The position numbers and the translations under genes are program-made. The notes under the pieces were generated by a model. The model was not told the DNA's origin. It saw only the letters and a list, made by a program, of their open reading frames with translations, and did no database searches. A stretch of 64,000 nt of DNA from Kaistia terrae (GTDB lineage Bacteria > Pseudomonadota > Alphaproteobacteria > Rhizobiales > Kaistiaceae): assembly GCF_026344005.1 (NCBI RefSeq), contig NZ_JAPKNH010000001.1:682001-746000 (forward strand). Direction: 5' to 3'. Of the stretch, positions 44,988-60,364 are shown in pieces; within the stretch, counting starts at the first letter, position 1, and every line of letters starts with the position of its first letter.

Positions 44988-45005
44988 TGAAATGTATGTT
45001 ATTAT
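44988..45005. promoter_or_regulatory. Operator-like site C, upstream of importer 1
   Basis: On the minus strand the sequence reads ATAATAACATACATTTCA. It keeps the left half (ATAATA, then CAT after one changed base) of the sites at 50297-50314 and 59924-59941, and the right half is degenerate. It lies between the GntR gene end and the binding-protein start, so it could control importer 1 apart from the regulator gene. Confidence 0.45.
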
Positions 45006-45040
45006 AATCTCTTGGGTGTGTCCAGATACGCCGCTGGTTC

Positions 45041-45778
45041 TCAGACCAGATCGTTGGGGGCGTCGTAGGAGAGGCTGAACAGATCGGCGCGGTTCTTGTT
45101 GATCGTCAGTTCGACGGGTTCGCCCGCGGTCGAGAGATAGAGCATTTCGATGACGAGGATCGGGCCGCCGACCCTGTAGTCGAGCGTCTTGGCGAGCGCC
45201 TCGTCGGCAATGTCGGCCCGGACGGTGATCTTGGCGCCGGAAAGCTGGATGCCGAGATGGCGCTGGACCGCACGGAAGACGACGACATCGTCGAAATCGG
45301 TGCGCTTCAGCCGCGCGCCGATGGCGGGCGGGAAGTAGAAGGTCGTCTGGCCGGTCGGGCCATCCTTCTGATGCAGGGTGGCGCGCAGGCAGTGGCACGT
45401 CTCATCCGGCTTGAGGTCGAAGGCGGCGCTGGCAGCGGCGGAGCGCTCCCTGCGGTAGGAATGGATCTCCAGCGCGCGGCCCTTGGTCGAGTCGGCAATC
45501 TGCGCAAAGCTGCGGAAGGCGAAGCTCGGCAAGGCCGGCGCTTCCGGCGCGACGACAATGGCCGGCTTCGCGGCGCGCTTCTTGATCAGGCCGTCATTTT
45601 CGAGATCGCGCAGCGCCTGGCGCACGGTGATCAGGCTGACGCTGAAGCGATCCGCGAGATCGGCCTCGCGCGGCAGCGAGGTTCCCGGAACCAGCGTGCC
45701 ATTGGCAATCGGTTCGCGCAGGATGACGGCGAGCTGTCGGTAAAGCGGCCCGTCGTCGCGCGAAAGGGCGCGCGGCAT
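45041..45778 (-). CDS. GntR/HutC-family transcription regulator
   Basis: A ligand-responsive repressor of about 245 residues with an N-terminal winged helix (PLYRQLAVILREPIANGTLV, FSVSLITVRQALRDLENDG) and a C-terminal UTRA effector domain (LHQKDGPTGQTTFYFP to LTINKNRADLFSLSYD). UTRA domains bind sugars, amino acids or their phosphates. I chose the ATG at 45778, just before the conserved region; a TTG at 45865 in frame would add 29 residues but has its GAGGA directly against the start codon. It is divergent from the SDR at 46053, and AT-rich operator-like sites lie at four promoters of the locus. Confidence 0.88.
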   Translation of the reverse strand: MPRALSRDDGPLYRQLAVILREPIANGTLVPGTSLPREADLADRFSVSLITVRQALRDLENDGLIKKRAAKPAIVVAPEAPALPSFAFRSFAQIADSTKGRALEIHSYRRERSAAASAAFDLKPDETCHCLRATLHQKDGPTGQTTFYFPPAIGARLKRTDFDDVVVFRAVQRHLGIQLSGAKITVRADIADEALAKTLDYRVGGPILVIEMLYLSTAGEPVELTINKNRADLFSLSYDAPNDLV

Positions 45779-45987
45779 GAAGCTTTCGAGAGAAGCGACG
45801 AGGCCTGCTGCCTCGGACTCGTTCTGGGCCGCTTGTCCGGTCTTGCTTGCTTTCAACCTGATCAATCCTCAGAATCGTATTTGTTCGCATCTCAAATTAG
45901 CGAAACTTTACCCGACATACTATTCGACCGAGAGCGCGGCGAACGGCGCCGAACGCCGGGTCGAACGGTTGCTGGCCTCCATATTAG

Positions 45988-46005
45988 ATTATAGTATCAT
46001 AATAT
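45988..46005. promoter_or_regulatory. Operator-like site D, GntR/SDR divergent promoter
   Basis: ATTATAGTATCATAATAT shares 13 of 18 positions with site A (50297-50314) and contains the inverted repeat ATTAT-N6-ATAAT. It lies 48 bases before the SDR ATG and upstream of the GntR gene, a typical place for an autoregulated GntR operator. Confidence 0.55.
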
Positions 46006-46052
46006 ATCAATAAGTCCGGCCGGTTCGGACGAATGCCGGGGAGGGCAGGCGC

Positions 46053-46832
46053 ATGCGCAGCGATTTGACGGGGAAGGTCGCCTTCGTGACGGGGGCAGCC
46101 GGCGGCATCGGGCGCGGTATCGTCAGCCGGCTGGCGGCGAATGGCGCGTCGATCGTCGTCGCCGACATCAACGAGGAGGGCGCGCGCGACGTGGCGGCCA
46201 GCCTGCCGGACGCGCTGCCGGTAACGGTCGACATCCGCGACGCGGATTCGATCGACCGGGCGGTTTCCAGGACTATCGAGACCTATGGCCGGCTCGACAT
46301 TCTCGTCAACAATGCCGGCGTCAACACGCAGGCGCACCGGGTCAATGTCGACACGTTCCCGATCGAGGAATGGCATCGCATCGTCGGCATCGATCTCGAC
46401 GGACTGTTCTTCATGACCCAACGCGCGCTGGAGCCGATGCTGGCGGCGGGCCGGGGCGGCCGGGTCGTCAACATCGCCTCGGTCGTCGGCCTCGCGGCGA
46501 TGCGGTTGCAAAGCCCCTTCGTCGCCGCCAAGGCCGGCATGATCCATCTGACCCGCTCGATGGCGCTGGAACTGGGGCCGAAGGGCATCGCAACCAACGC
46601 TATCGCGCCCGGATCGATCATGACCGAGGCGACGAAGCTGTTGTTCTATGGCGAGAAGGGCCAGTTCCAGAGCAAGACCGCAGCGTTCATGAAACACATC
46701 CCGCTCGGCCGTCCCGGTACGCCGGAAGAGATCGGCGAGGCGGTACTGTTCCTGTCATCGCCGGAGTCTTCCTACATCAACGGCCAGGTTCTCGCAGTCG
46801 ATGGCGGCTGGACCGCCGGGTACATGATGTGA
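46053..46832 (+). CDS. SDR-family oxidoreductase with altered active site (Tyr to Phe)
   Basis: A 259-residue short-chain dehydrogenase fold. The NAD(P) motif TGAAGGIG and NNAG are intact, and the C-terminus ends VDGGWTAGYMM. The active-site Ser is present (Ser143 in NIASVVG) and Lys160 is kept. The catalytic Tyr, expected at 156 in YxxxK, is Phe (PFVAAK), and the structural Asn before the active site is Asp114. This would cripple ordinary SDR chemistry unless another residue takes over. GGGGAGGGC precedes the ATG. A strong terminator follows, so it is a single-gene unit divergent from gntR. It shares its C-terminal sequence style (AVDGGWT.GY) with the 189-residue SDR-like protein at 50434. 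Confidence 0.88.
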   Translation: MRSDLTGKVAFVTGAAGGIGRGIVSRLAANGASIVVADINEEGARDVAASLPDALPVTVDIRDADSIDRAVSRTIETYGRLDILVNNAGVNTQAHRVNVDTFPIEEWHRIVGIDLDGLFFMTQRALEPMLAAGRGGRVVNIASVVGLAAMRLQSPFVAAKAGMIHLTRSMALELGPKGIATNAIAPGSIMTEATKLLFYGEKGQFQSKTAAFMKHIPLGRPGTPEEIGEAVLFLSSPESSYINGQVLAVDGGWTAGYMM

Positions 46833-46847
46833 GTCTTTGACGGAATG

Positions 46848-46885
46848 AAAAGGGGCCGGCGCATGAACAGCGCCGGCCCCTTTTT
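46848..46885. terminator. Strong bidirectional terminator after the SDR gene
   Basis: A perfect 15-bp stem (46848-46862 with 46870-46884, GGGGCCGGCGC core, 7-base loop) is flanked by A4 on one side and T5 on the other. It can end transcription from either direction. Confidence 0.93.
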
Positions 46886-46932
46886 GCTTGTGTAGCTTGG
46901 CTGTGCAGACCGGCACGAAACACCGACTTTCC

Positions 46933-47056
46933 TTCACCTCTCCCTGAGGGAGAGGTCGACGGCGTAGCCGGCGGGTGAGGGTTTACGGCCTCACCGGATA
47001 GTTCCCTAAACCCTCACCCGGAGCTTCGCTCCGACCTCTCCCTCAGGGAGAGGTGA
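46933..47056. repeat. Long intergenic palindromic repeat, family R1
   Basis: About 124 bp with inverted ends (TTCACCTCTCCCTGAGGGAG and its partner ending AGAGGTGAA). It is nearly identical to 43630-43755, including the inner CTAAACCCTCACCCGGAGCT followed by TCGCTCCGACC. Confidence 0.8.
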
Positions 47057-47069
47057 AGGAGAGCGCTTC

Positions 47070-47762
47070 TCAGACCAGCAGGCGCAGCGGCGCTTCGATC
47101 AGGTCGCGGAAACCGGTCAGGATGCTACCGGCATCGACTTCGGAGATCGCCTCCGCGTCATGAATCACCAGCGCTTCCGCCGCCGTTGCGTCATCGCTGG
47201 CGACGACCAGGATGCGCAGATCGACGCCTGAAGGCAGGCTGCCGGCGACTGGCCGCACGCCCTTCGCCGCCAGCCTTGAGACGACCATCACCTTGTCCGC
47301 TGAGACGGAGACATTGGCATCCGACCCGATCAGCCGGTCGATTTCCGTCGGCGCCAGGGCCACAGCGCGCGCGAGCGTCACCGCGCCCCCTTCCGGCCTC
47401 ATCCAGCGAATGGATGTGGCATGGGCGCCAGCGCTGCGCGCCGCCGCCTTGATGACAAAGGCGTCGATCGACAGGCCGGTTCCGGACGCGGTGATGAACG
47501 CGGCCAGCGGCGCCAGATCGATCGTCGCGGCAAAGGCCGAGATCGAACGAGCCGGCGCGAAGGCGGGCGCTGGTGCCGGGGCCGCCATCGGAGCCGCGAC
47601 GGCTGCCGGGGCTGGTTCCGGAGCTGCGACCGCAACAATCCGCAAGAGATCGTCGGCGACAATGCGGCCGTTCGGTCCTGTGCCGGTGACGAGCGACAGA
47701 GTCACGCCGCGCTCGCGGGCGAGGCGCTTCGCATAAGGCGAGGCGAGGGTTCGGGCGTTCAT
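47070..47762 (-). CDS. E2-like protein: peripheral-subunit-binding domain plus degenerate acyltransferase core
   Basis: A 230-residue relative of dihydrolipoamide acyltransferase. The first 40 residues form a normal subunit-binding domain (ASPYAKRLARERGV, GTGPNGRIVADDLL), followed by an Ala/Pro linker. The C-terminal part is a shortened acyltransferase fold that ends like true E2 (DAGSILTGFRDLIEAPLRLL). The catalytic HRxxDG motif is gone: aligned from the end, His falls on Ala and Asp on Ser (VIHDAEAISEVDAG). No lipoyl domain is present; one is fused to the E1 gene ten bases upstream. It may hold the complex together, recruiting E3, rather than transfer acyl groups. No E3 gene lies in the window. 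Confidence 0.82.
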   Translation of the reverse strand: MNARTLASPYAKRLARERGVTLSLVTGTGPNGRIVADDLLRIVAVAAPEPAPAAVAAPMAAPAPAPAFAPARSISAFAATIDLAPLAAFITASGTGLSIDAFVIKAAARSAGAHATSIRWMRPEGGAVTLARAVALAPTEIDRLIGSDANVSVSADKVMVVSRLAAKGVRPVAGSLPSGVDLRILVVASDDATAAEALVIHDAEAISEVDAGSILTGFRDLIEAPLRLLV

Positions 47763-47772
47763 GGCGTTCCCC

Positions 47773-50223
47773 TCAGCGCCGGACGCTGCCGATGCGGCCG
47801 CCCATCGGCACGACCGTGCCCTTGGGCTGCTCGATCGGGCCGAGCGTGCCGTCGATTGGCGCTTCGATCTCGACCACGGCCTTGTCGGTCTCGATCTCGG
47901 CGACGATCTCGCCGGCCTTGACCGCGTCGCCTTCCTTTTTCAGCCAGCCGACGATCGTGCCTTCGCTGATCGTCAGATCGCCGAACGGCATGGTGATCGG
48001 TTCGCCGTCGCCGACTGCAACCGGAGCGGCGGCTACTGGAGCGGGTGCTGGCGGCGTAACAGCCTTGGGTGCTGCCGGTGCGACCGCCACAGGGGCGGGA
48101 GCCGACTGGCCGCCGAGATAGCGCCAGTGTTTCGGCACCGGCGGCTTGCCGTCCAGAACGCCCTTGGCGCCCGCGACGATCTTGTCGGCATCGACCAGCA
48201 TGGCGCGTTCCAGCGCTGGGGCGAGGGGATGCGGCTGCGGATCGGTATGCAGCCGGCCAACCGGCGCATCGAGATCGTCGAAAGCGAGCTCGTTCATCGC
48301 CTGCGCCACCTCGGCGCCGACGCCGAACGCGCCCCAGCCTTCATCGACCACCAGCAGCCGGTGCGTCTTGGCAACCGATTTCGCCACCGTGCCGACATCG
48401 AGCGGCATGATGGTTCTGAGGTCGATCACCTCGGCCGAGATATCTTCGGCTGCCAGCTTTTCCGCCGCCTCCAGCGCGCGGTGCACCAGCTGTCCGGCCG
48501 CGACGATGGTGATGTCGGCTCCTTCGCGGGCAATCCGCGCCAGGCCGAACGGCACGAAATGCTCGGCGGTGGGTACTTCGCCCTTGGTGGCGAACAGCGC
48601 CTTCGGCTCCAGCATCAGGACGGGATCGCCGGCCCGCAGCGCCGTCTTCATCAGGCCCTTGGCGTCGGCGGGCGTCGAGGGCATGCAGACGATCAGGCCC
48701 GGAATATTGGCCCAGCTCGGATGATAGGTGCCACTATGGTGGGGACCGGCCGAGCGCACCGCGCCGGAGCCGACGCGCACCACCATCGGCGCGTTCATCT
48801 GGCCGTTCGACATGTAGCGCAATTTTGCCGCCTGCAGCACGATCTGGCCGGCCGCCTCGAAGACGAAATCGGCGAACATCAGGTCGGCGATGGTGCGCGA
48901 TCCCGTCGCCGAAGCGCCGATCGCCGCCCCCGTAAAACCCTGCTCGGAGATCGGCGTATCGACCATCCGGTTCGGGCCGAATTCGGTCCAGAGGTTCTTG
49001 GTGTGTGCGAACGTGCCGCCGCGCTCGCCGGTGCCTTCGCCGAAATAGAGGATGTGCTTGTCGCGTCGCATCTCTTCGGCGATGCCGTCGCGCACCGCGT
49101 CGAGCCAGCTCTGCGTCACGGTCGCCGTCGGGGCGGCCTGCACCAGCGCATCGGCCGGGTTGATCGGCTCGGCATAGACATAGAGCGAACTGGTCGTCGC
49201 GTCCGGCTCCGGCGAATTCCTTGCGAATTCAAGCGATTCGGCGACGATCTTGTCGATCTTCGCGTCGATCGCGCCCAGCTCGTCGGCCGATGCGGTGCCG
49301 AAATCATCCAGGATACGCGCGCGGAACAGGTTGATCGGGTCGCGCTTCAGCCAGAGGTCGACTTCCGCCTGCGTGCGGTAGGTGCCGGTGACGTGGTCGC
49401 CTTCATGGTGGCCGACGGTGCGATAGGTCTTGGCCTCGATCAGCGTCGGGCCTTCGCCGGAACGGGCGCGGGCGATCGCGTCGGCCATGACCTGCCAGAC
49501 GGCGATGACGTCATTGCCGTCGACGGCGATGCCGGGAATGCCATAGGCTGCCGCGCGGGTGGCGATCTCCGGGTTCAGAGTCGCCGAGGCGAGCGGCGTC
49601 GCGGTGGCGTACAGGTTGTTTTCGCAGACGAGGACGGCGGGCGCCTTCTGGATGCCGGCGAAATTCAGCGACTCGTGAAAACCGCCATGGTTGGTCGCGC
49701 CATCGCCGAAGAAGGCGACGCCAACGCCGTCCTTGCCCTGGGTCCGGGCGGAAATGCCGGCGCCGACGGCGTGGCTGATGCCGGCGGCGACGATGCCGTT
49801 GGTGCCGAAAAGCCCGGTCTTGCGGTCATAGAGATGCATGGTGCCGCCGCGCCCGCCACAGCAGCCGTCGCGCTTGCCGAACAACTCAGCCATCAGGATG
49901 TTGGGCTCCATGCCCTTGGCCAGCGCATGGCCATGGCCGCGATGCGTCGAGGTGATCCAGTCGGTCGGGCGAAGATGCGCGCAGACGCCGACGGCGGTCG
50001 CTTCCTCGCCGATATAGAGATGCAGGAAGCCGGGCGTCTCGCCCTTGCGGCAGGCGGTCTGCGCCACGCTCTCGAATCGGCGCAACAGCACCATCCGCTC
50101 GTAAAGCTCCAGCAAAGCGGCGGCCGTCAGCCCGGCCGGGACAATCTTGCCGGGCGCGCTGCGAAAGACCGGATTGTGGATTTCCGGGGCGCGGATCGCC
50201 GGATTCATCACTTGAGCGCTCAT
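47773..50223 (-). CDS. Thiamine-diphosphate-dependent E1alpha-E1beta-lipoyl fusion dehydrogenase
   Basis: An 816-residue fusion in this order: E1alpha (about 20-345), E1beta (about 385-705), an Ala/Pro linker, and a lipoyl domain (about 740-816) with the lipoylation Lys in EIETDKAVVEIEAP (near residue 781). The thiamine motif is GDGATNHGGFHESLN to CENN, and LGRLHTD-type E1beta C-terminal features are present. The E1alpha part most resembles acetoin/branched-chain types, not pyruvate dehydrogenase. It should decarboxylate or cleave a 2-oxo acid or alpha-hydroxyketone and load the acyl group onto its own lipoyl arm. The second of tandem ATGs (50223) best fits GGGAGGG. Operator site A lies upstream. 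Confidence 0.87.
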   Translation of the reverse strand: MSAQVMNPAIRAPEIHNPVFRSAPGKIVPAGLTAAALLELYERMVLLRRFESVAQTACRKGETPGFLHLYIGEEATAVGVCAHLRPTDWITSTHRGHGHALAKGMEPNILMAELFGKRDGCCGGRGGTMHLYDRKTGLFGTNGIVAAGISHAVGAGISARTQGKDGVGVAFFGDGATNHGGFHESLNFAGIQKAPAVLVCENNLYATATPLASATLNPEIATRAAAYGIPGIAVDGNDVIAVWQVMADAIARARSGEGPTLIEAKTYRTVGHHEGDHVTGTYRTQAEVDLWLKRDPINLFRARILDDFGTASADELGAIDAKIDKIVAESLEFARNSPEPDATTSSLYVYAEPINPADALVQAAPTATVTQSWLDAVRDGIAEEMRRDKHILYFGEGTGERGGTFAHTKNLWTEFGPNRMVDTPISEQGFTGAAIGASATGSRTIADLMFADFVFEAAGQIVLQAAKLRYMSNGQMNAPMVVRVGSGAVRSAGPHHSGTYHPSWANIPGLIVCMPSTPADAKGLMKTALRAGDPVLMLEPKALFATKGEVPTAEHFVPFGLARIAREGADITIVAAGQLVHRALEAAEKLAAEDISAEVIDLRTIMPLDVGTVAKSVAKTHRLLVVDEGWGAFGVGAEVAQAMNELAFDDLDAPVGRLHTDPQPHPLAPALERAMLVDADKIVAGAKGVLDGKPPVPKHWRYLGGQSAPAPVAVAPAAPKAVTPPAPAPVAAAPVAVGDGEPITMPFGDLTISEGTIVGWLKKEGDAVKAGEIVAEIETDKAVVEIEAPIDGTLGPIEQPKGTVVPMGGRIGSVRR

Positions 50224-50290
50224 CATCCCTCCCTGACCCCCGCTCCTGCAGGGCGATGCGTCCTCTAGCCCGGTGATGGACATCGCATCT

Positions 50291-50315
50291 AAAATTATAA
50301 TAGCATGATGTTATG
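50291..50315. promoter_or_regulatory. Operator-like site A, E1 operon / SDR-like divergent promoter
   Basis: Core 50297-50314 reads ATAATAGCATGATGTTAT, an imperfect palindrome centred on CATG. The full 25 bases recur exactly, inverted, at 59923-59947. It sits between the divergent E1 fusion gene and the SDR-like gene and would cover the E1 promoter region. Confidence 0.7.
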
Positions 50316-50433
50316 TTATCGAGCCGTGCCTTGCCAAGGTCTAATCGTGGGTCCGGCTCAATTCACAGGCGGGACGTCGGGCGTTGCGAGAAACCGGCCG
50401 ATGCCGCATAGGTCCGTTCGGGGGGAACTAGTC

Positions 50434-51003
50434 ATGGAAATCGAGATCTCAGGCCAATCGGTGCGCATCGTGGGCGAGGACAACGCCATCCTGGCGGCCG
50501 TCGTCGCGGCGCTCACCGCCAATGGCGCGCTGGTCTCGCGCGAGGCGGGCGAGGGCGCGCCGGACATTCTTATTCTCTCGCACCCGCTCACCCCCGATGC
50601 GAGCTACCGGCCGGAAGCCTTGGCGGCGCAAGCGGAATCAGTCGCGAGCGCGATGGTCTCGCGAGGAACGGGCCGCATCGTCCATCTCGCCTCGGCCGCC
50701 GGTCTCGTGCCTATGCGTCGCCATCCCGCCTGGTCGGCGGCGATGGCCTCGGTGCTTTCGAGCGTGCGCGCGCTGGCGATGGTTTCTGGGCCAGCCGTGC
50801 TGGTCAACGCCGTCGCGGTCGGCCGCGTCGACGAGGCGGGCGACGAGGCGATGCTCTCCCATGTGCCATCCGGCCAGGCCGGCAAGGCGGAAGACGTCGC
50901 CAATGCCGTGCTGTTCCTGGTCGATCCGCTCAACAGCTACACGACCGGCCAGTCCCTCGCCGTCGATGGCGGCTGGACGACGGGCTACGGCCGCAATTTC
51001 TGA
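50434..51003 (+). CDS. Short SDR-like protein lacking cofactor and catalytic motifs
   Basis: A 189-residue protein whose second half follows the SDR fold (RIVHLASAAGLVPM, then AEDVANAVLFLVD and SLAVDGGWTTGYG). The glycine-rich TGxxxGxG nucleotide motif is absent. Ser87 is in place, but the Tyr and Lys positions are Trp100 and Met104 (AWSAAM). It should be unable to act as a dehydrogenase alone. GGGGGAAC precedes the ATG at 50434; the open frame extends to 50305 without conserved content. It is divergent from the E1 fusion and resembles the C-terminus of the SDR at 46053, so the two may pair; that is inference. Confidence 0.8.
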   Translation: MEIEISGQSVRIVGEDNAILAAVVAALTANGALVSREAGEGAPDILILSHPLTPDASYRPEALAAQAESVASAMVSRGTGRIVHLASAAGLVPMRRHPAWSAAMASVLSSVRALAMVSGPAVLVNAVAVGRVDEAGDEAMLSHVPSGQAGKAEDVANAVLFLVDPLNSYTTGQSLAVDGGWTTGYGRNF

Positions 51004-51064
51004 ATTTTGGGGACGGTTTCGGGTGGGGGGCGTCCCAAGGCGGTCATGCAGTACCCCCCATGCC

Positions 51065-51194
51065 CATCATCCAGAGGTGCTTCGCGCCAGCGAAGCCTCG
51101 AAGAACGCACGGCCTATCGGCGGGGAGGGCTTCCGTCTTGCACGAGCGCTGTGCGTCCTTCGAGGCCGCCTTGAGGCGGCACCTCAGGATGATG
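51065..51194. repeat. Intergenic inverted repeat pair, family R2
   Basis: A left copy (CATCATCCAGAGGTGCTTCG, AAGCCTCGAAGAACG) faces a right copy (CGTCCTTCGAGGC, GCACCTCAGGATGATG), the same layout as at 24060-24240. Confidence 0.65.
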
Positions 51195-51298
51195 AAGGCC
51201 GGGATTTGCAGGAAAGTCGGTAGCCGCATGAGCTTCTTACGAAGAAGCGTAGCGGCACGATCCATCCCGCGTCGCCCCCAGCCGCCAGTCCACGCTCG

Positions 51299-51348
51299 CC
51301 GTCATCCCGGGCAAGCGTAGCGCGACCCGGGATCCATGCAACTGGGTT
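51299..51348. repeat. Intergenic repeat, family R3
   Basis: CCGTCATCCCGGGC and GACCCGGGATCCATGC form a short stem matching the left part of the repeat at 38913-39015. No gene lies between 51004 and 51472. Confidence 0.6.
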
Positions 51349-51472
51349 GTCGGCGGCATGGCTCAACAGGCCGACCGTCCGGATCGCGCGCAACTTCCAT
51401 TTTTCGACCCACTCAGCACGGCGGGCTCGCTACCATCGCCACAACCAACAAGCCGCCTCAGGAAACGCCAGC

Positions 51473-52342: not shown

Positions 52343-52448
52343 TCTGGTCAGGTTCTATTTGTAGTTGAACCTGAGGGTATTCGCCTATATTGGGTGTATC
52401 TGAGTATCTACTCATTGGGATCGAGCTTCGCTGAAATGGTGAGCTAAA

Positions 52449-53048
52449 TTGCAGTTCAGAATCCTGACAGCTCTAGCTATATTCTTGGGATCGTACCTAC
52501 CTCTGAGCTTTATTTTGCTTGCTCAAGATTTTGCCTACGAGAACCTCAGTGGGCAGATATGCTGGGCTCCCTGGCGGGATGATTGCGCGCTTCCTTTCAA
52601 GAATCCATTTTTCTCGATTGGTATATTTCTTGCTTGCGTGATGTGTTTGATTGTCACGCTGGTGAGCTTGAGGTTGATTAAACCAAAGCAAGAGATATTA
52701 ATCAAAGAAGCTAAGCATGTTCCGTCTGATCTGATGAACTATACTTTGCCTTACGTTGTTTCATTCATGAGTATAAGCTATCAGGATTCGGGAAAATTTG
52801 TTGGATTTGTCGTATTTTTAGTATGGATGTTTTGGATATCATATAAATCGGGTCAGATAATTCTTAATCCAATGCTGATTGTATTGAACTGGCGTCTTTA
52901 TGACGTCTCATATGAATATGTCGGCGGGTCTGGCGTGCAGAAGGCAAATGTCTTGTCAAAGGGCAGTATAGAGGCCGGAAAGCGTTATTTTCAGGTCCCG
53001 ATTCAAGAAATTCTCGTGATAACCGATACCGATTCGTCGGGGGGATGA
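52449..53048 (+). CDS. kwaA: Kiwa anti-phage system membrane protein KwaA
   Basis: A 199-residue protein with four predicted transmembrane segments (about 4-26, 53-76, 96-112 and 117-134) and a soluble C-terminus, the topology of KwaA. The call rests mainly on this topology and on the DUF4868 partner one base downstream. Start is TTG at 52449, preceded by GGTGAG. Base composition is clearly richer in A and T than its neighbours (many ATA, TTA, AAA codons), a sign of transfer. Upstream, a 7-bp inverted repeat (CAGGTTC-N11-GAACCTG, 52349-52373) overlaps a possible -35 (TTGAAC), with TATATT at 52386. Confidence 0.75.
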   Translation: MQFRILTALAIFLGSYLPLSFILLAQDFAYENLSGQICWAPWRDDCALPFKNPFFSIGIFLACVMCLIVTLVSLRLIKPKQEILIKEAKHVPSDLMNYTLPYVVSFMSISYQDSGKFVGFVVFLVWMFWISYKSGQIILNPMLIVLNWRLYDVSYEYVGGSGVQKANVLSKGSIEAGKRYFQVPIQEILVITDTDSSGG

Positions 53049-53049
53049 T

Positions 53050-53970
53050 ATGCCGCTGCCGGAATCTTTTCAGAATTTCGATATAGAAAATTCTAGCGTA
53101 CAGATTTGGCTGTTCAAGAAGTGGAGCCAGCCAGATGGATTATTACGTTTTTCCGGGCGATGGATTGATACTGATGACGACTTAGACCAAGCCCTGAAGC
53201 AGGCGATTGCGTTTAAACGTCAGAGCATTTTGGAGGTTAGTGACTACACGCTGCTAGCCGCGGCCAATGATGGTATTGCGCTACGAATCGATGCGCTGGC
53301 CACTCATGCCGGTGTGGTCGCCGCCGAGGCCGCCAACCCTCTTCCTGCTCGAAAAATACGATCTCTCGACGATGTACAGAATACGAAGTTTTACGTGATC
53401 AAATTGACCAGTGGCGACAACGTCTTGTACGCGGTCCGGAAGACGGATGCCACATGGCAGTCCAGGCGAGTTAGTGGCTTTCTATCTGTAATATATTCTG
53501 ATGACCGTCTTGGTCTAAATGAGAATCCGGGATTCAATATTTCGAGAGATATTGATTTTTTTATCATTGAAGATGATGTTGTTATTACCAATAAGCCTGC
53601 ATTCGAATCTGTTCTTAGCTATAAAGAGGCGCATGTTGCCGACTTTAATCTGCTTCAAGCAGACGATGAATTTTCATCACTCTTCTCTGATCTTGGTCCG
53701 CTGATTGATTTCATTGGAGTGAATAAGCTTCATTTGAGGCGCGCGTGCGCAATTCACCAGAAGGGACACTATCGTGATGCAGCGTTCATGACGAGATTGC
53801 GCCAACGACATGCTCAATGCGGACTGCAGCTCGTATTCGACGATCAAGGGCGCATAGTAGCTACGCTGGAGAGTTGTTCTGATATCATGCGCGCACTGCT
53901 CGACCATCGATTGTCATCGCTCTTCTCTGAAAACAACTATGACGTACCTGATGCAACGGTTGTGGCTTAG
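53050..53970 (+). CDS. kwaB: Kiwa anti-phage system protein KwaB (DUF4868)
   Basis: A 306-residue soluble protein of the DUF4868 type, the effector partner of KwaA. The central region (FKVIKL-like strands, RDIDFFIIEDDVVITNKPAF) and C-terminal half (HLRRACAIHQKGHYRDAAFM, LESCSDIMRALLDHRLSS) follow the family pattern. In the known system KwaA senses phage at the membrane and KwaB acts on phage DNA late in infection. GGGGGATGAT precedes the ATG, one base after kwaA. The gene shares the AT-rich composition of kwaA. It ends 14 bases before a remnant of a host SDR gene. Confidence 0.8.
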   Translation: MPLPESFQNFDIENSSVQIWLFKKWSQPDGLLRFSGRWIDTDDDLDQALKQAIAFKRQSILEVSDYTLLAAANDGIALRIDALATHAGVVAAEAANPLPARKIRSLDDVQNTKFYVIKLTSGDNVLYAVRKTDATWQSRRVSGFLSVIYSDDRLGLNENPGFNISRDIDFFIIEDDVVITNKPAFESVLSYKEAHVADFNLLQADDEFSSLFSDLGPLIDFIGVNKLHLRRACAIHQKGHYRDAAFMTRLRQRHAQCGLQLVFDDQGRIVATLESCSDIMRALLDHRLSSLFSENNYDVPDATVVA

Positions 53971-53983
53971 GTCGAGTTGCTCC

Positions 53984-54088
53984 CTAAGGTAACGGTGCCG
54001 TCAGGCTGCCATCCGCCGTAAAGGCGCTGTCGGTGATGAAGGACGTGTCGTCGGCGAGCAGGAAGGCGATGGCGCGGGCGAGCTCGCC
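53984..54088 (-). pseudogene. SDR gene 3' fragment 1
   Basis: On the minus strand this encodes ELARAIAFLLADDTSFITDS followed by AFTADGSLTAPLP and a stop. It matches the last 30 or so residues of the intact SDR at 55205-55984 (ELAKAIAFLISDDASFVTGS). Nothing upstream of it continues the gene; an R1 repeat abuts it at 54090. It is a decayed partial copy. Confidence 0.75.
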
Positions 54089-54089
54089 T

Positions 54090-54248
54090 TTCACCTCTCC
54101 CTGAGGGAGAGGTCAGCGCGGAGCGCCGGGTGAGGGGTTAGGGAACCCTCCGGATAAGGCGTACTGCCGCAGGGTGGTGTGCCGGTGACGCCGTAAACCC
54201 TCACCCGCCGGCCTTCGGCCGTCGACCTCTCCCTCAGGGAGAGGTGAA
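54090..54248. repeat. Long intergenic palindromic repeat, family R1 (expanded)
   Basis: Ends match the other R1 elements (TTCACCTCTCCCTGAGGGAG, CCTCTCCCTCAGGGAGAGGT). The centre holds about 35 extra bases (TAAGGCGTACTGCCGCAGGG region), making it longer than its relatives. Confidence 0.75.
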
Positions 54249-54340
54249 GAGGGGCGCGATCCGGCGCGTGCGCCAATCGCCTGGGCCGATTTCTTGGTGC
54301 GAACAATCGCTTGCCGCTGCCGATCCTCGTGAAGCGCGCA

Positions 54341-54510
54341 CAACAGCAGCGCCTTAAGCGCGCCATCCGCCGTGAAGGCGCTCCACGTCACAGGCGAGGC
54401 GTCGTCAGAGAGCAGGCAGCCGATAGCCTTGGCGAGTTCGGGTAGATCGGCGACGCGCGTGGCCTTGCGTTCGTCGAAGTAGAGCCCTGCCGCCTCGACC
54501 CTTTCTCTAT
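54341..54510 (-). pseudogene. SDR gene 3' fragment 2
   Basis: The minus strand encodes VEAAGLYFDERKATRVADLP, ELAKAIGCLLSDDASPVTWS and AFTADGALKALLL, matching the C-terminal 55 residues of the SDR at 55205-55984. The stop codon position has been lost (TGA to TGT) and no N-terminal part exists. It is a second, longer relic of the same gene end. Confidence 0.8.
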
Positions 54511-54519
54511 TTCGAACGC

Positions 54520-54888
54520 TCAGGCGTTCGCTGCCTTCCTCCCCCGGATCCCGATGGAATTGCCCCACGGATCGCGAAACTGCGCCATCCATTCGGCGGC
54601 GTCGATTTCCATCGGGCCGCGATAGAGTTTTGCGCCGACTGACTGGAAATGGGTTAGCGCGCGGTCGAAATCTGCGACGGCCCAATAGACCACCGAGCCG
54701 GCAGCGCCGCTTGCCACCTTTTCGTCGGCCTGGACCAGTTCGAGCTGGATCGGGCCGATGGCGAGATAGCGGAAGCCGGAGGGTTCGCTCGTCTCGATCC
54801 GCGCTTCCGGGAAGGCGTTTGCGTACCAGGCGAGGCCCGCTTCCGGGTCGGCGACATGCACGAGAATGGCGGAGATGAAGTTCGTCAC
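54520..54888 (-). CDS. VOC-family (glyoxalase/bleomycin-resistance fold) protein
   Basis: A 122-residue single VOC-domain protein: MTNFISAILVHVADPEAGLA, WYANAFPEARIE, then GPIQLELVQADEKV and FRDPWGNSIGIRGRK. The pattern (AWYANAFP, RDPWGNSIGI) is that of the broad glyoxalase-like group; no specific substrate can be given. The start is GTG at 54888 with AGGGACC upstream. It lies between a decayed SDR fragment and an R1 repeat, with no obvious operon partner. Confidence 0.82.
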   Translation of the reverse strand: MTNFISAILVHVADPEAGLAWYANAFPEARIETSEPSGFRYLAIGPIQLELVQADEKVASGAAGSVVYWAVADFDRALTHFQSVGAKLYRGPMEIDAAEWMAQFRDPWGNSIGIRGRKAANA

Positions 54889-54987
54889 GGTCGGTCCCTG
54901 GCTGCGCTGGCGGCGAGGTTCGATGTCGCAAAAGTGGCGCGCGAGATCAACCGGCGGGCGAGGGCGCTCTCGCGCCGGGTGCGGTGC

Positions 54988-55116
54988 TTCACCTCTCCCT
55001 GAGGGAGAGGTCGGAGCGAAGCTCCGGGTGAGGGTTTAGGAAACCATCCGGAGAGGCCGTAAACCCTCACCCGCCGGCCTGCGGCCGTCGACCTCTCCCG
55101 TGAGGCGAGAGGTGAA
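54988..55116. repeat. Long intergenic palindromic repeat, family R1
   Basis: About 129 bp with inverted ends; the left end matches 46933-47056, and the right end carries the variant CTCTCCCGTGAGGCGAGAGG also seen at 57584-57610. Confidence 0.8.
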
Positions 55117-55204
55117 GAGGGGTGAGCCGGCGAGGCGGGCCGGTGTTGCTACCCTCTACCAAAAAACTCCCCCACAAGGAGAGGCGAAGTGCCGAGCCTT
55201 GCCC

Positions 55205-55984
55205 TCAGAGCAGCAGCGCCGTCAGGCCGCCATCGACGACAAAGCCGCTGCCGGTGACGAAGGAGGCGTCGTCGGAGATGAGGAAGGCGATCGCCTTGGC
55301 GAGCTCGAGCGGGTCGGCGACGCGCGGCACTTTTCGTTCGTCGAAATAGAGGCCCGCCGCCTCGACCTTTTCGCGCGCGTCCGGCGCGTCGCCGAGCGTC
55401 ATCCGGGTGGCGACCGAGCCGACGATGACGGCGTTGACGCGGATGCGGTCGCAAGCATAGTCGAGCGCCATCTGCTTCGACAGGCCGACGACGGCGGCCT
55501 TGGTCGCGGCATAGGCCGGCACGCCGGGGACGGTGGCGACCGCATGCACGGAGGCAAGGTTGACCACCGAGCCGCCGCCCGAGGCGCGGATCAGCGGCAG
55601 GCTCGCACGGCAGACGCGAAAAATCGCGGTCAGGTTTATCGCGACGGTCAGGTCCCATTCGGCATCGGAAACGTCTTCCAGCCTCTTGCCTGTGGCGTAG
55701 ATGCCGGCGCAATTGACGACGGCGTCGAGCCGGCCATGCTCGTGGTGGCAGGCGGCGACGGCGGCGCGCACCGCCGCGTCATCGGTCAGGTCGACCTCGC
55801 GGAACGACAGCGGCAGGTTTTTGGCCGCTGAGGCCGCGTCGAGCGCGCGGCCGGCGTCGCCATCAAGGCCGATGCCGAAGACGCTGGCACCTTGCGAGAC
55901 GAGATATTCCGCCGTGGCGCGGCCGATGCCGGTTGCAGCGCCGGTAACGAGGACGACCTTGCCGTCGAAGCGTCCCGCCATCAT
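55205..55984 (-). CDS. SDR-family NAD(P)-dependent dehydrogenase
   Basis: A 259-residue classical short-chain dehydrogenase with all motifs intact: TGAATGIG (cofactor), NCAG, Ser in NLASVHAV, and YAATK as the catalytic Tyr/Lys pair. It probably oxidises a sugar or polyol. It begins with tandem ATGs (55984, 55981) overlapping the stop of the importer 2 ATPase gene, so it is the last gene of the importer 2 operon. With the lactonase of importer 1 it could make and open a sugar lactone. The last part of this gene has been copied twice nearby (53984-54088, 54341-54510). Confidence 0.92.
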   Translation of the reverse strand: MMAGRFDGKVVLVTGAATGIGRATAEYLVSQGASVFGIGLDGDAGRALDAASAAKNLPLSFREVDLTDDAAVRAAVAACHHEHGRLDAVVNCAGIYATGKRLEDVSDAEWDLTVAINLTAIFRVCRASLPLIRASGGGSVVNLASVHAVATVPGVPAYAATKAAVVGLSKQMALDYACDRIRVNAVIVGSVATRMTLGDAPDAREKVEAAGLYFDERKVPRVADPLELAKAIAFLISDDASFVTGSGFVVDGGLTALLL

Positions 55985-57558
55985 GCGCGTCCCGCGCCGG
56001 CGGCGAGCGCCTGTTGCTGCAGGGTGGCCTGCGCCGTCGTGATCGAGCGCAGCACCTTGTCCTCGCTGCCTTCGCCGCGCGTGAACTCGTCGACGATGCG
56101 GCCATCGGCGACCACCAGGCAGCGGTCGGCGAGGCCGATCACTTCCTCCAGCTCCGAGGCGACAACGACCAGCGCCACGCCCTTGTCGGCGAGGTCGACG
56201 ATCAGCCGGTAGATCTCATGCCGCGTGCCGGCGTCGACGCCCTTGGTCGGTTCATCGAGCAGCAACACGCGCGGCGCGCTCATCAGCACGCGGGCGAACA
56301 GCAGCTTCTGCTGGTTGCCGCCGGAGAGATGGGCGACGGAGGCCTGCGGCGAGCGCGCCTTGACGTTGAGCGCCCGCATGGCGGCGAGCACGGCGCTTTT
56401 CTCGCGGCCCTCGCGCACCATGCCGTGGCTCGACAGCGGCGCCAGATTGCCGATGGTGATGTTGGCGCCGACCGGCAGGTTGAACAGCAGGCCGTCGCGC
56501 TTGCGGTCCTCGGTCAGGAGCGCCACGCCGGCGGCGCGCGCGTCGGCCGAGCGCTGGATCGCGACGGGGCTGCCGTCGATCTCGATCTCGCCGGAGAACG
56601 GGATGCGGCCGTAGATGGCGTGCAAGATTTCCGTCCGGCCGGAGCCGAGCAGGCCGGCGAGGCCGAGGATTTCGCCGGGGCGCACATCGAACGAGACGTC
56701 GCTGACGCCGCGATTGACGCCGAAACGGCCGGCGATCGAAAGGTTTTTTACGGAGAGAAGGGGCGGGGTCTTGGCCGGCGGAGCGACGTGGTCGGGATAG
56801 AGGCGCTGCAGCTTCTGGCCGGACATGGCGAAGATGAAGTGTTCCTCGTCAAAATGCTCGCGGTCGATCTCGGCGGCGACGCGACCATCGCGCAGCACGG
56901 TGGCGCGGTCGCAGATCGCGAGCACTTCCGGCAGGCGGTGGGTAATGAAGATCATCGTCTTGCCCTGCGCCTTGAGCCGGCGGAGCACGGAAAACAGCCG
57001 CTCGACCTCGACGCCCGAGAGCGAGGCCGTCGGCTCGTCCAGCATCAGCACGCGGGGCTTGAAGGAGAGGGCGCGGGCGATCATGACGAGATGGCGCTGC
57101 GCTGATGTCAGGCTTGCGACCAGCATGCGCGGATCGATGGCGAGGCCGAGATCCTGGAACAGGGCGCGGGCTTCGGCTTCCATGCGGCGGCGGTTGATGA
57201 TCGGGCCGCGGCCGAGGCCGGTATGGCCGGCAAAGACGTTTTCGGCGACCGAGAGCTGTTCGAGAACCTCGATCTCCTGCGGCACATAGCCGACGCCCTC
57301 GGCGCGGGCGGCCGAGGTGGAGGCGAAGGCGACCGGCTTGCCGTCGACGAGGATTTCGCCCGAATAGGAGCCGGCCTTGTGGACGCCGTTCAGGATCTTG
57401 ACGAGGGTCGATTTTCCGGCGCCGTTCTGGCCGAGCAGGGCATGGATCTCGCCCGGATGAACCGCGAAATCGACGCCGCGCAGCGCCTGCACGCCGGAGA
57501 AGCTCTTGATGATGGCGCGGGTCTGGATGACCGGCGGGGCAGTGATTGGGTCGGTCAT
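55981..57558 (-). CDS. Sugar ABC transporter ATP-binding protein, importer 2 (tandem-domain)
   Basis: A 525-residue double ATPase of the RbsA/MglA type. Domain 1 has LLGQNGAGKST, LTSAQRHLVMIARAL and VLMLDEPTASL; domain 2 has ILGLAGLLGSGRTE, LSGGNQQKLLFARVL and LLLDEPTKGVDAG. The ATG at 57558 follows GGGGACCAACGAC; the longer open frame runs into R1-type repeat. It is the third gene of importer 2 (permease, binding protein, ATPase, SDR). Confidence 0.94.
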   Translation of the reverse strand: MTDPITAPPVIQTRAIIKSFSGVQALRGVDFAVHPGEIHALLGQNGAGKSTLVKILNGVHKAGSYSGEILVDGKPVAFASTSAARAEGVGYVPQEIEVLEQLSVAENVFAGHTGLGRGPIINRRRMEAEARALFQDLGLAIDPRMLVASLTSAQRHLVMIARALSFKPRVLMLDEPTASLSGVEVERLFSVLRRLKAQGKTMIFITHRLPEVLAICDRATVLRDGRVAAEIDREHFDEEHFIFAMSGQKLQRLYPDHVAPPAKTPPLLSVKNLSIAGRFGVNRGVSDVSFDVRPGEILGLAGLLGSGRTEILHAIYGRIPFSGEIEIDGSPVAIQRSADARAAGVALLTEDRKRDGLLFNLPVGANITIGNLAPLSSHGMVREGREKSAVLAAMRALNVKARSPQASVAHLSGGNQQKLLFARVLMSAPRVLLLDEPTKGVDAGTRHEIYRLIVDLADKGVALVVVASELEEVIGLADRCLVVADGRIVDEFTRGEGSEDKVLRSITTAQATLQQQALAAGAGRA

Positions 57559-57583
57559 GTCGTTGGTCCCCGGATACTTTCTT

Positions 57584-57697
57584 TTACCTCTCCCGTGAGG
57601 CGAGAGGTGAAGGGTAGAAAGTCCCTCACCCAACCCTCTCCCGCAAGCGGGCGAGGGCCAAGGGAGCAAGACCCTCTCCCGCGTGGCGGGAGAGGGC
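57584..57697. repeat. Intergenic palindromic repeats, families R1/R1b
   Basis: TTTACCTCTCCCGTGAGGCG with AGAGGTGAAG is an R1 end; it is followed by two R1b hairpins (CCCTCTCCCGCAAGCGGGCG, CCCTCTCCCGCGTGGCGGGA). The element lies inside the importer 2 operon, between the binding protein and ATPase genes. Confidence 0.75.
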
Positions 57698-57714
57698 AAG
57701 GCAGGTTCGCGGGC

Positions 57715-58692
57715 TTACTGGCCGGCGCTGTCGAGCATCCTGTAGTAGGGCTCGAGGTCGGCGGCGGTGATGACGCCGGCCGGCAGCGGGTTCAGATAGG
57801 TGACCGTCTTGCCTTCGGCGAGGTCGTTGGCGAGTTCGGCCGTCTTGGCGCTTTCCTCGTAAAGCGGCTGGGCGACGACGCCATAGGCAGCGCCTGATTT
57901 CACCAGGTCGAGGTTCTGGCGGATGTAGTCCATGCCGATGATGACGAGCGGGCGGTCCGCCTTGCGGGCGGCGCCCGACCAGGTCTGCGCGCCGTTGCCG
58001 GTGGTCGAGAAGGCGGCGTTGACGTCCGGATTGCCCTGCAGCAGCGCGACGGCCTTGCCTTCGGCGGCGGAGGGCTCGAAGCCTTCCATCTGCGTCTCGA
58101 GGATTTTGATGTCTGGATACTTTTCAGCGATCGTCTTGCGGAACGAGTCCGCCATGACGTTCTCGGTATCGTTGGACGAGCCCTGCGTCAGGGCGATGAC
58201 ACCCTTGCCGCCGAGTTTCTCGCCCATGGCGAGGGCGGCCGAATTGCCGGCGCTCGGAATGTCCTCGCCGACGGCTGCCTTCAGGCCCGGGACGGAACCT
58301 TCCGGCGGCAGCACGTGCCAGGTGACGACCGGGAAACCTTCACGGCCGAGCTTGCCGATGAACGGGAAGATTTCGGGGCCGGGGCCATAGACGGCGATGG
58401 CGTCGAACTTGGTGCGGGCCATGGCCGCTTCAGCGAGCGGGATCGACGAGGAGACGTCGTAATTGGTCGCGCTCGGATTGCCGACGATCTCGCAGGTGTT
58501 GCCGAGTTCCTTGCACTTGTTGAGGAAGCCGGCCTGCATGAGGCGATGCACCGGATGGTCGCGCATCGGCTGCACCCAGAGGATGTTCTTGCCGGCGGCA
58601 AGGCTGGCGTCCGGCACGGCAAGCAGGCCGCCCGTCATGGCGACGGTAGCGAGCAGCGCGGTCTTCATCAGGCTGGAAATACGGATCTTCAT
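57715..58692 (-). CDS. Sugar ABC transporter periplasmic substrate-binding protein, importer 2
   Basis: A 325-residue Peripla_BP_4 receptor. The signal peptide begins MKIRISSLMKTALLATVAMT and is cut near SLA-AG. The mature protein starts GKNILWVQPMRDHPVHRLMQ and has DAIAVYGPGPEIFPFIG, GGKGVIALTQGSSNDTENVM and PLVIIGMDYIRQNLDLVKSG. GGGAGGA lies seven bases before the ATG at 58692. It differs clearly from the importer 1 receptor, so the two importers likely take different sugars or different forms of one sugar. Confidence 0.92.
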   Translation of the reverse strand: MKIRISSLMKTALLATVAMTGGLLAVPDASLAAGKNILWVQPMRDHPVHRLMQAGFLNKCKELGNTCEIVGNPSATNYDVSSSIPLAEAAMARTKFDAIAVYGPGPEIFPFIGKLGREGFPVVTWHVLPPEGSVPGLKAAVGEDIPSAGNSAALAMGEKLGGKGVIALTQGSSNDTENVMADSFRKTIAEKYPDIKILETQMEGFEPSAAEGKAVALLQGNPDVNAAFSTTGNGAQTWSGAARKADRPLVIIGMDYIRQNLDLVKSGAAYGVVAQPLYEESAKTAELANDLAEGKTVTYLNPLPAGVITAADLEPYYRMLDSAGQ

Positions 58693-58786
58693 GAGTAGTC
58701 CTCCCTCTGGTCGACCGGCCTTGTGACCGGCCATTTTCGATCCTTCGCGTCGTCCGGGCGCAGGCTCCTCCCTGGCCCGAACTAGC

Positions 58787-59839
58787 TCAGGATGGATTGC
58801 TTGGTGTTTCGGCGACGGGCGCGGAGCTGGAACCGGCGATGAAATAGCGGCGGCGCAGGATGTCGAGGCCGACGGCCAGCACCATGATCACGCCGACGGC
58901 GATCTGCTGCCAGTTGGCGTTGACGCCGACGACGACGAGGCCGCTGGTGACGACCTGCAGCAGCAGGACGCCGATCAGCCCGCCGGCCATCGTGCCGGCG
59001 CCGCCGAACAGGCTGACGCCGCCGACGACGACGCCGGCAATGACGTTCAGCTCCCAGCCGCTGCCGATCGAGGTGGTGCCGGAAGCGAGGTCGGCCATGA
59101 CGAACATGCCGGCGACGGCGGCGAGCGCGCCAACCGTCATGAAGGCGCCGATCTTGTAACGGGCGGTGTCGATGCCGACGAGGCGGGCGACTTCCGGGTT
59201 GCCGCCGGTCGCATACATGTTGCGGCCGAGCACGGTCCGGCGAAGCACGAAGTCGGCGATCAGGGCCGCCGCGATGAAGAAGACGAAGCTCCAGCCGAGC
59301 CCGAACAGGAAGTCTGCATAGCCGATCTCGGTGATCACAGGCGGCAGCGGATAGACCGGATAGCCGTTGGTGACGACTTGGATCAGGCCCTGGCCGATGA
59401 ACAGCATGCCGAGCGTCTGGATGAAGGCCGGGATCTTGAGCTTGACGACGACGAGGCCGTTGACGAGGCCGACACCGGCGCCAACCAGCACGCCGCCGAG
59501 AAGCGCCAGCGGCACCGGCAGGGCGAGCGCTGTCATCAGCTTGGCGCTGCAGACGGCCGAAAGGCCGGCGACCGCGCCGACAGAAAGGTCGAACTCGCCG
59601 CTGACGAGCAGGATGGTCTGGCCGATGGCGATGATGCCGATGAACGAGACGACGCGCAGGATGGCGCGGATGTTGCGCTCCGACAGGAACGCCGGCTCCA
59701 TGATGTAGAAAAAGGTGACCAGCACGATCAGCGCGAGCAAGACGCCCACTTCGCCCACCGCGACAAAGCGGGTCAAACGATCGCGCATCGCGCGGCCAGA
59801 TCCCTCGAAGCCGGAATCCCGCTCAACGGTACGTTCCAT
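58787..59839 (-). CDS. Sugar ABC transporter permease, importer 2
   Basis: A 350-residue CUT2-class permease with GQTILLVSGEFDLSVGAVAG near residue 85 (Glu where ribose permeases have Gly before the Asp) and VVVGGVSLFGGAGTMAGGLI near the end. Being the only permease gene here, it probably forms a homodimer. GGGAGGAACAT precedes the ATG at 59839. It is the first gene of importer 2; operator-like site B lies about 85 bases upstream. Confidence 0.93.
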   Translation of the reverse strand: MERTVERDSGFEGSGRAMRDRLTRFVAVGEVGVLLALIVLVTFFYIMEPAFLSERNIRAILRVVSFIGIIAIGQTILLVSGEFDLSVGAVAGLSAVCSAKLMTALALPVPLALLGGVLVGAGVGLVNGLVVVKLKIPAFIQTLGMLFIGQGLIQVVTNGYPVYPLPPVITEIGYADFLFGLGWSFVFFIAAALIADFVLRRTVLGRNMYATGGNPEVARLVGIDTARYKIGAFMTVGALAAVAGMFVMADLASGTTSIGSGWELNVIAGVVVGGVSLFGGAGTMAGGLIGVLLLQVVTSGLVVVGVNANWQQIAVGVIMVLAVGLDILRRRYFIAGSSSAPVAETPSNPS

Positions 59840-59922
59840 ATGTTCCTCCCTTTCCACCAGGCGCGTCCTCCTCGACACGGTCCTCGGCGGGGCTCCTTCA
59901 GAACGTTGAAGGGGCCAGATGA

Positions 59923-59947
59923 CATAACATCATGCTATTATAATTTT
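59923..59947. promoter_or_regulatory. Operator-like site B, upstream of importer 2
   Basis: These 25 bases are the exact reverse complement of 50291-50315. The core, 59924-59941, is ATAACATCATGCTATTAT. It lies in the promoter region of the importer 2 operon. Between 59948 and 60259 I see no gene or other feature. Confidence 0.7.
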
Positions 59948-60259
59948 ATCAACGTTCCGCATTGGGCCGCCCCCGAAAAAATATGCGTCGGGCGTTGGGC
60001 TGCAAGGCGGGCGCCACGCGCCAGGCGGATGCCGCGGCATGGGGGGCGAAGGTTCGTCGCGATCGACGAGCGAGATGGGTTGGACGTGAGCGCCGCTTGT
60101 TTCAGGTCGCGATGACCGGAGCCGAGGCAAGCCCTCCGCTCACGCCAGTGGACGAGGGCTTTTCGACCCGTAGTCGGCGATGCCTCGGGGCATGCGGCCC
60201 ATCGACCGTCCGGCCCGATCGGTGCGCGCACTCGACGGCTCATCAAGCCGCTACCGCCC

Positions 60260-60299: not shown

Positions 60300-60364
60300 C
60301 CAATGTGTGGGCCGCCTATGCCGCCGCTCGTGAGCGGAGGCGAGGGACGTCGGCCGCAGCTAGC

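Follow-up and report, generated by a model that had tools for sequence, protein, structure and literature searches.

A predicted regulon of a GntR/HutC-type regulator with an AT-only operator in a sugar locus of Kaistia terrae

Among the transcriptional regulators of the GntR family, those of the HutC subfamily are marked by a UTRA domain. NagR (YvoA) is reported to block transcription until its effector binds, and in its complex with DNA the guanines G-5 and G-4 are read by Arg38 and Arg48, respectively, Arg35 and Arg45 of FadR acting alike (PMC4333415). The HutC-subfamily operator has the consensus NyGTMTAKACNy, in which GT and AC stand 4 nt apart in most members, while FarR, NagQ and SdhR are among the exceptions, whose motifs resisted alignment to those of the main group (Suvorova et al. 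2015; PMC4494728). Here we describe a HutC-type regulator with a different predicted operator in a 64,000-nt stretch of the Kaistia terrae genome (assembly GCF_026344005.1, contig NZ_JAPKNH010000001.1, positions 682,001 to 746,000, forward strand; hereafter the window). Four related sites lie at promoters of a locus that encodes two ATP-binding cassette (ABC) importers, several short-chain dehydrogenases (SDR), a fused E1 dehydrogenase component and a GntR/HutC-type protein (gntR, 45041-45865). We propose that these four sites are the operators of this protein, which would repress the locus and be released through its UTRA domain, an explanation to which, taken as a whole, we assign a probability of roughly 0.8.

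Operator-like sites in the window and at the promoters of relatives

The initial annotation had noticed an exact inverted recurrence of 25 bp (50291-50315 and 59923-59947), which was borne out and turned out to be longer, since 50290-50316 is the reverse complement of 59922-59948 over 27 bp. With up to 3 mismatches, the 18-mer core of this repeat matched twice in the window and in none of 100 shuffles, and it matched twice in the whole 5.59 Mb genome, where the reversed control gave no match. A position weight matrix (PWM, 30.4 bits) was built from 58 sites (44 different 22-mers) of 15 related genomes, the window being excluded and the training sites being chosen by eye-guided mapping from a two-mismatch scan. 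On the window this relatives-only matrix ranked highest exactly the four promoters at which sites had been proposed, with four independent places at 40.9, 40.9, 34.5 and 24.6 and the next independent one at 9.2; the remaining high rows overlap the four places, and the peak across 100 resampled windows was 15.4. The pattern NTTATADTAKYATNNT has three exact matches in the whole genome, all of them within the sugar locus.

The two weaker sites had been placed less accurately. For the one before gntR and the divergent gene SDR_A, the count of 13 of 18 identical positions at 45988-46005 was correct, but the register was 3 bp off; the register conserved in relatives pairs ATTATAGTATCATAAT (45988-46003) with ATTATAATAGCATGAT (50294-50309). 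The site suspected at 44988-45005 is real, but its position is 44993-45008 on the minus strand (ATTATAATAACATACA), of which the former interval covers only a part.

The same promoters were aligned in 15 relatives, each where the available stretch includes the promoter. Ahead of importer 2, all 15 relatives carry the better form ATTATAATAGCAT, compared with the weaker ATTATAATAACATACA of the window. Between gntR and SDR_A, ATTATAGTATCAT was present in 9 of the 12 relatives aligned, with variants in G001, G004 and G012; the two-mismatch scan did not find this site in G016, G026 and G027, and G016 and G026 carry the variant TGTGATAGTATAAT between gntR and the SDR gene. The site between E1 and the divergent gene SDR_C was found in all 14 relatives aligned, two of them with an altered first base (the E1 promoter of G001 lies outside its stretch), and the site ahead of importer 1 in all 11, four being exact over 13 bp and seven having one change. 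At these last two promoters the copies stay near-identical in relatives while the flanks diverge.

Six relatives have a fifth site, which precedes a third ABC importer and reads TTATAATAGTATG or similar in G014, G015, G016, G021 and G026 and TTATAATAGCATA in G001. In G015 (site at L096:13685) the binding protein of the third importer is of the SBP_bac_3 type and a two-gene (split) transketolase lies nearby, and in G021 an enolase-superfamily dehydratase precedes the site. The matrix scan showed no fifth site in the window.

To the right of the dyad we also observed a conserved arm, GATGTTATGT (50307-50316 and 59922-59931), at the E1 site of 10 of 14 relatives and at the importer 1 site of 7 of 11. 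A second half-site or a -10 element are two possible readings of this arm.

Co-occurrence of the motif with its predicted regulator

The family set comprised 28 genomes, the present one included, of which 17 encode a GntR ortholog (at least 50% identity, E <1e-70) and 11 lack one. The exact 13-mer ATTATAATAGCAT was found in all 17 GntR-bearing genomes and in 0 of the 11 GntR-free ones, and all 35 exact matches lay at most about 21 kb from gntR. The fused E1 (at least 75% identity) was distributed similarly (16/17 and 0/11); it was not found in G022, whose gntR sits on a 4.5-kb contig, and G005 and G006 gave only E1 matches of 43-44%, interrupted by stops. G023, from the same genus, has neither gntR nor E1 nor the motif. 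The co-distribution of the 13-mer with GntR and the matching promoters in relatives support the proposal of the initial annotation that one regulon is controlled by the GntR/HutC protein at 45041. When the exact 13-mer was searched class-wide in 289 genomes, 15 genomes besides the present one matched; because the reversed control pattern matched 12 genomes, these matches are read as chance. Four other genomes with an E1 fusion (G155, G205, G258 and G301, identified by scoring no more than the top 3 candidates of each genome) are absent from the 15.

Outside the family, six Comamonadaceae loci (L039, L040, L041, L043, L045 and L047) carry the GntR protein at 60-67% identity, and in all six a matrix match exceeded 50 resamples, that of L041 being a partial likeness only. 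There the site stands ahead of other transport and enzyme genes, beside other importers: it lies about 96 bp (L039) and about 99 bp (L040) ahead of an SDR-E1 pair, and in L047 it precedes genes for a flavin adenine dinucleotide (FAD) oxidase, an enolase-superfamily dehydratase, a 2-hydroxyacid dehydrogenase, GntR, TRAP transporters, an SDR, E1 and E2. L045 has gntR with sites and no E1 match in its 20.7 kb, so that the motif is separable from E1. When 20 proteins of the window served as queries, those found again in most loci outside the family were gntR, SDR_A and E1, of which only gntR is DNA-binding.

Over 43 loci (L039-L081), the best matrix score beat all 50 resamples in 19 of the 31 loci whose GntR has Leu or Met at the recognition-helix position discussed below (Leu/Met type) and in 0 of the 12 others. 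Three of the 19 (L042, L044 and L046) are training genomes, which makes the independent count 16/28, and the match in L065 does not resemble the site. In a separate survey of the DNA upstream of E1, 31 loci had an E1 gene start at 60% or above, 26 of them of the Leu/Met type; L048 and L053 had too little DNA, leaving 24. The half-site TTATAATAG was present 77-143 bp upstream of the point where the E1 alignment begins in 19 of these 24, namely 8 family genomes already counted and 11 Acetobacterales/Rhodospirillales-type records. In the remaining five the site is at the head of the operon (L039, L040 and L047) or before the SDR gene (L055 and L056), the one in L056 being weak, as 3 of 50 resamples score as high.

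None of the five outgroup E1 loci (L069 and L111-L114) has the half-site TTATAATAG upstream of E1. A recognition-helix Arg was found in the GntR of four of them (that of L113 on another contig), and that of L114 was not seen at this position of the helix. Among the E1 loci examined, these five were thus the only ones that keep the genes and lack the motif, the pattern which the initial annotation had set against a shared regulator, and the four helices seen have Arg, not Leu. The canonical GTNTANAC, searched in six outgroup loci, matched once, at L112 position 4603, which by coordinates falls inside the SDR gene, and was not found in the other five. Separately, three Arg-type loci (L112:4782, L115:1417 and L116:2277) have another AT-rich block, TGATATTATGATAAT, in common, which closely follows gntR, precedes the SDR gene where this is present on the contig, and is possibly the operator of the Arg-type orthologs.

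These distributions bear on the explanation that some other regulator binds the sites and that GntR is a mere neighbour. In the window, site 4 has a gene for a ROK protein (62229) in its vicinity, and in one relative an open reading frame (ORF) with a LacI-type sugar-binding domain is found near importer 1. We consider another binder very unlikely: a ROK homologue (E 1e-25) was present in 3 of the 16 family loci (window, G017 and G018; some stretches stop short), compared with 16/16 for the motif, the motif of the Comamonadaceae and of the Acetobacterales/Rhodospirillales occurs in loci bearing this gntR, and one of the sites is in the gntR promoter region itself. The ROK protein, not being conserved across the loci compared, was rejected as the binder.

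Recognition residues and predicted mode of repression

By phmmer, the best solved relative of the Kaistia GntR protein was NagR/YvoA (4u0v, E 1.8e-13; also 2wv0), and in this alignment the Kaistia protein has Ala in place of NagR Arg38 (LPREADLA) and Leu in place of Arg48 (VSLITVR), which are Ala68 and Leu78 of its 274-aa ORF. Position 48 is occupied by Leu in 44 of 45 distinct orthologs and by Met in the remaining one, and all 45 have Ala at position 38; at position 48 of 26 other GntR segments, Arg was found 24 times and Pro and Gln once each. The protein combines an N-terminal GntR winged helix-turn-helix (wHTH) domain with a C-terminal UTRA domain, as in the HutC subfamily; none of 24 NCBIfam GntR equivalog families (HutC, PhnF, PhnR, Rv0792c and others) scored above its cut-off, the best being TIGR02018 (HutC) with 65.1 vs 220 bits.

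On the side of the DNA, the best-form sites TTATANTANCATNA have TA rather than GT at -4/-3 and CA rather than AC at +3/+4, and the GT-N4-AC of HutC operators does not occur. Both ATTATAGTATCATAAT and ATTATAATAGCATGAT have the TA-centred even dyad with AT-rich arms, and the centre ATAG of sites 3 and 4 fits the MTAK of the HutC consensus; the TA centre served to place the dyad on the HutC frame, in a symmetry-based alignment. An AT-only operator fits with the absence of both guanine-reading arginines, and a causal link between residues and operator may underlie this agreement.

A tree was computed from 57 GntR rows, of which 42 had Leu, 1 had Met and 12 had Arg; the other 2, which read SLIT, were left unlabelled by the script. 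The Leu/Met type formed one side of one branch (support 99/94), with one label change in 98% of the bootstrap trees; the tree program gave a warning about long branches in the distant Arg rows. All six rows from Comamonadaceae nest within the Kaistia rows (98/89), and the site has therefore probably spread by horizontal transfer in company with the regulator and the enzyme genes. On balance we lean, with some reserve, towards a switch of specificity within the HutC subfamily, in which the change of the helix Arg to Leu, on top of Ala at the other position, would have re-targeted the protein from GT-N4-AC to an AT-only operator in the same frame; this would have happened once, and the new specificity would have been kept in the Kaistia family and the Acetobacterales/Rhodospirillales and been passed horizontally into the Comamonadaceae.

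According to the mechanism that we propose, a GntR dimer would bind the 16-bp imperfect dyad (best form ATTATAATAGCATNAT) at its own promoter and at three others, those of the two ABC importers and the one shared by the E1 operon and the SDR gene divergent from it. It would repress most likely by covering core promoter elements, would autoregulate gntR through site 2, and would be released when a pathway intermediate is bound by the UTRA domain. The arrangement of the promoters is suggestive in this respect, since the sites overlap plausible core elements. At importer 2 we found TGGACA-N17-TAGCAT or TAACAT (8-9/12 matches) in a fixed register in 15 of 16 genomes, the window included; around the importer 1 site TTGATA-N17-TGTTAT (9/12 matches) in 11 of 12 genomes; and at E1 TCGATA-N17-TATAAT (10/12 matches) in 7 of 15 genomes, this last pair being the top result of a search.

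The overlap of these suggestive -35/-10 pairs with the conserved block could also be taken to mean that the block is itself a promoter element, whose ATTATAAT contains the consensus -10 TATAAT and which serves strong promoters or an alternative sigma factor. TATAAT is indeed present on both strands of ATTATAAT, in the Kaistia family pbp2, perm1 and the SDR genes all have the block in the same relative orientation, and some Acetobacterales/Rhodospirillales loci keep only the ATTATAAT half. However, the conserved block of the Kaistia family is longer than TATAAT and restricted to the sugar locus in a genome of 5.6 Mb, its exact 13-mer is missing from the GntR-free family genomes, its orientation is reversed before the next gene in L039, L040, L045 and L047, and its register differs among promoters, so that we regard a promoter element as very improbable. 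That the 27-bp repeat is a mobile or duplicated repeat, as the identity of the E1 and importer 1 copies over 27 bp might suggest, or that the sites are AT-rich chance resemblances, is extremely unlikely, given that shuffling yields none; the mobile element was rejected as the genome holds no further core copies within 3 mismatches and relatives keep near-identical copies promoter by promoter despite diverging flanks.

Several points nevertheless weigh against binding of the sites by the GntR protein and the repression that would follow. The regulon is built throughout from comparative sequence data, and its operators are predicted ones. With one mismatch, NTTATADTAKYATNNT gave 5 matches in the present genome vs 8 for the reversed control, so that only exact matches carry weight; likewise, with one mismatch ATTATAATAGCAT gave 8 matches elsewhere in the family genomes, one of them in the GntR-free G008, and 2 on another contig of G020, vs 6 for the reversed control. 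Twelve of the 31 Leu/Met-type loci failed to beat all resamples, most of them ending before the E1 promoter or keeping only the left half-site (L054, L056, L064 and L070), and L050 (18.4 kb, no E1 match) shows no site. As gntR, SDR_A and E1 mostly co-occur, it is only exceptions such as L045 that allow the motif to be linked with gntR by presence alone. Ala at position 38 is also present in 16 of the 26 other GntR sequences, hence Leu at position 48 is the change that marks the clade; the correlation of Arg or Leu with the operator corresponds to one evolutionary change, which clade membership explains equally well. Finally, the promoter registers were eye-guided, and 8-9/12 matches are common by chance.

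Genes of the locus and comparison with known systems

The features of the locus are collected in Table 1. The ORF of gntR (274 aa; recognition helix VSLITVRQA) starts at TTG 45865, a TTG near 45856 being the more likely start; E1 starts at ATG 50226 or 50223, after GGGAGGG, and SDR_C at ATG 50434, ATG 50305 falling inside operator 3.

Table 1. Predicted operators and genes of the sugar locus (positions in the window)
Feature	Coordinates	Strand	Remarks
Operator 1	44993..45008	-	ATTATAATAACATACA; about 155 bp upstream of pbp2 (importer 2; probable start GTG 44838); PWM 24.6
Operator 2	45988..46003	+	ATTATAGTATCATAAT; gntR/SDR_A divergent promoter; PWM 34.5
Operator 3	50294..50309	+	ATTATAATAGCATGAT; E1/SDR_C divergent promoter; in 27-bp repeat 50290-50316; PWM 40.9
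Operator 4	59929..59944	-	ATTATAATAGCATGAT; ahead of importer 1; in 27-bp repeat 59922-59948; PWM 40.9
Importer 2 binding protein (pbp2), first of pbp2-abc2-permeases-SMP30 lactonase	43771..44838	-	Pfam Peripla_BP_4 7.5e-50; GTG 44838 after GGGAGGA
GntR/HutC-type regulator (gntR)	45041..45865	-	Pfam GntR wHTH PF00392 4.2e-15, UTRA PF07702 2.7e-13
SDR_A, short-chain dehydrogenase, divergent from gntR	46053..46832	+	Pfam adh_short_C2 2.9e-63
E2-like subunit	47070..47762	-	Only Pfam match E3_binding 2.3e-15; shortened C-terminal region
E1 component, fused alpha + beta + lipoyl domain	47773..50226	-	Pfam E1_dh, Transket_pyr, Transketolase_C, Biotin_lipoyl
SDR_C, short SDR-like protein, not a pseudogene	50434..51003	+	Pfam adh_short_C2 3.7e-18
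Importer 1 permease (perm1), first of perm1-pbp1-abc1-SDR_B	58787..59839	-	Pfam BPD_transp_2 4.5e-44; ATG 59839 after GGGAGGA

The sugar-type ABC importers, the SMP-30 lactonase, the SDR and an epimerase, together with the enolase-superfamily dehydratase of relatives, point to a sugar or sugar acid as the substrate; the solved relatives of both binding proteins, of the lactonase and of the dehydratase span broad substrates. The E2-like protein (47070-47762) has an E3-binding domain and no acyltransferase or other catalytic domain detectable by Pfam. Compared with the Comamonas E2 (L047, PF00198 7.7e-75), it is 70 aa shorter and lacks the DHRVTEG motif in the alignment. Its AlphaFold model has a mean pLDDT of 79.9, and no sequence relative of its residues 70-230 was found in the PDB; it is possibly a shrunken, non-catalytic E2.

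Two further observations concern neighbouring genes. Between the epimerase gene and SDR_B there is a Kiwa defence pair at 52449-53970 on the plus strand (KwaA 3.3e-76, KwaB 3.3e-116; PADLOC), and no match to kwaA or kwaB was found at E 1e-25 in the mapped stretches of 15 relatives. An ORF of 618 aa (60305-62161, plus strand), which adjoins importer 1, has no match in Pfam, NCBIfam or PADLOC, and among the relatives mapped it has homologues (E 1e-25) in G017 and G018 only.

If the predicted operators are correct, an unannotated locus becomes a defined regulon of two importers, a lactonase, three SDR genes and a fused E1 dehydrogenase, to which some relatives would add the third importer, with a sugar-acid-type dehydratase and a split transketolase next to it, and such a definition would help to find the substrate. 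The locus would also offer a clean test of how specificity changes in the GntR family, with one Arg-to-Leu difference in the protein and one clade-wide difference in the operator, both of which can be swapped. What appears to be new here is the regulon of a HutC-type repressor with a re-targeted operator, and it is unusual in that guanine contacts are predicted to be missing from protein and operator alike. The literature listings searched, one of which covered 5 of 1,664 papers, showed no paper on this regulator and none that combines Kaistia with GntR; a paper giving the DNA string alone would escape such a search.

The Kaistia protein resembles NagR (YvoA) of Bacillus subtilis, which acts at dre-sites, in its GntR wHTH and effector domains, in the dyad of its operator and in the predicted role as a repressor of sugar utilisation (PMC4333415). 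It differs in having Ala and Leu where NagR has Arg38 and Arg48, and its operator has A/T at the corresponding places of the centre-based alignment, the match between the two proteins being a distant one. With the HutC regulons the locus shares sites in divergons with the regulator gene and a TA-centred dyad, and its motif is not among the HutC motifs printed in the available sections of PMC4494728. The consensus GT...AC of these regulons is missing from the Kaistia sites. Another GntR-type regulator, BioR, has biotin genes as its targets. Its site TTATMKATAA, as given in the same sections of PMC4494728, is like the Kaistia operator an AT-rich palindrome that has no GT and starts with TTAT; it is, however, a 10-bp palindrome of a FadR-subfamily regulator, whereas the predicted Kaistia operator spans 14-16 bp and belongs to a protein of the HutC subfamily.

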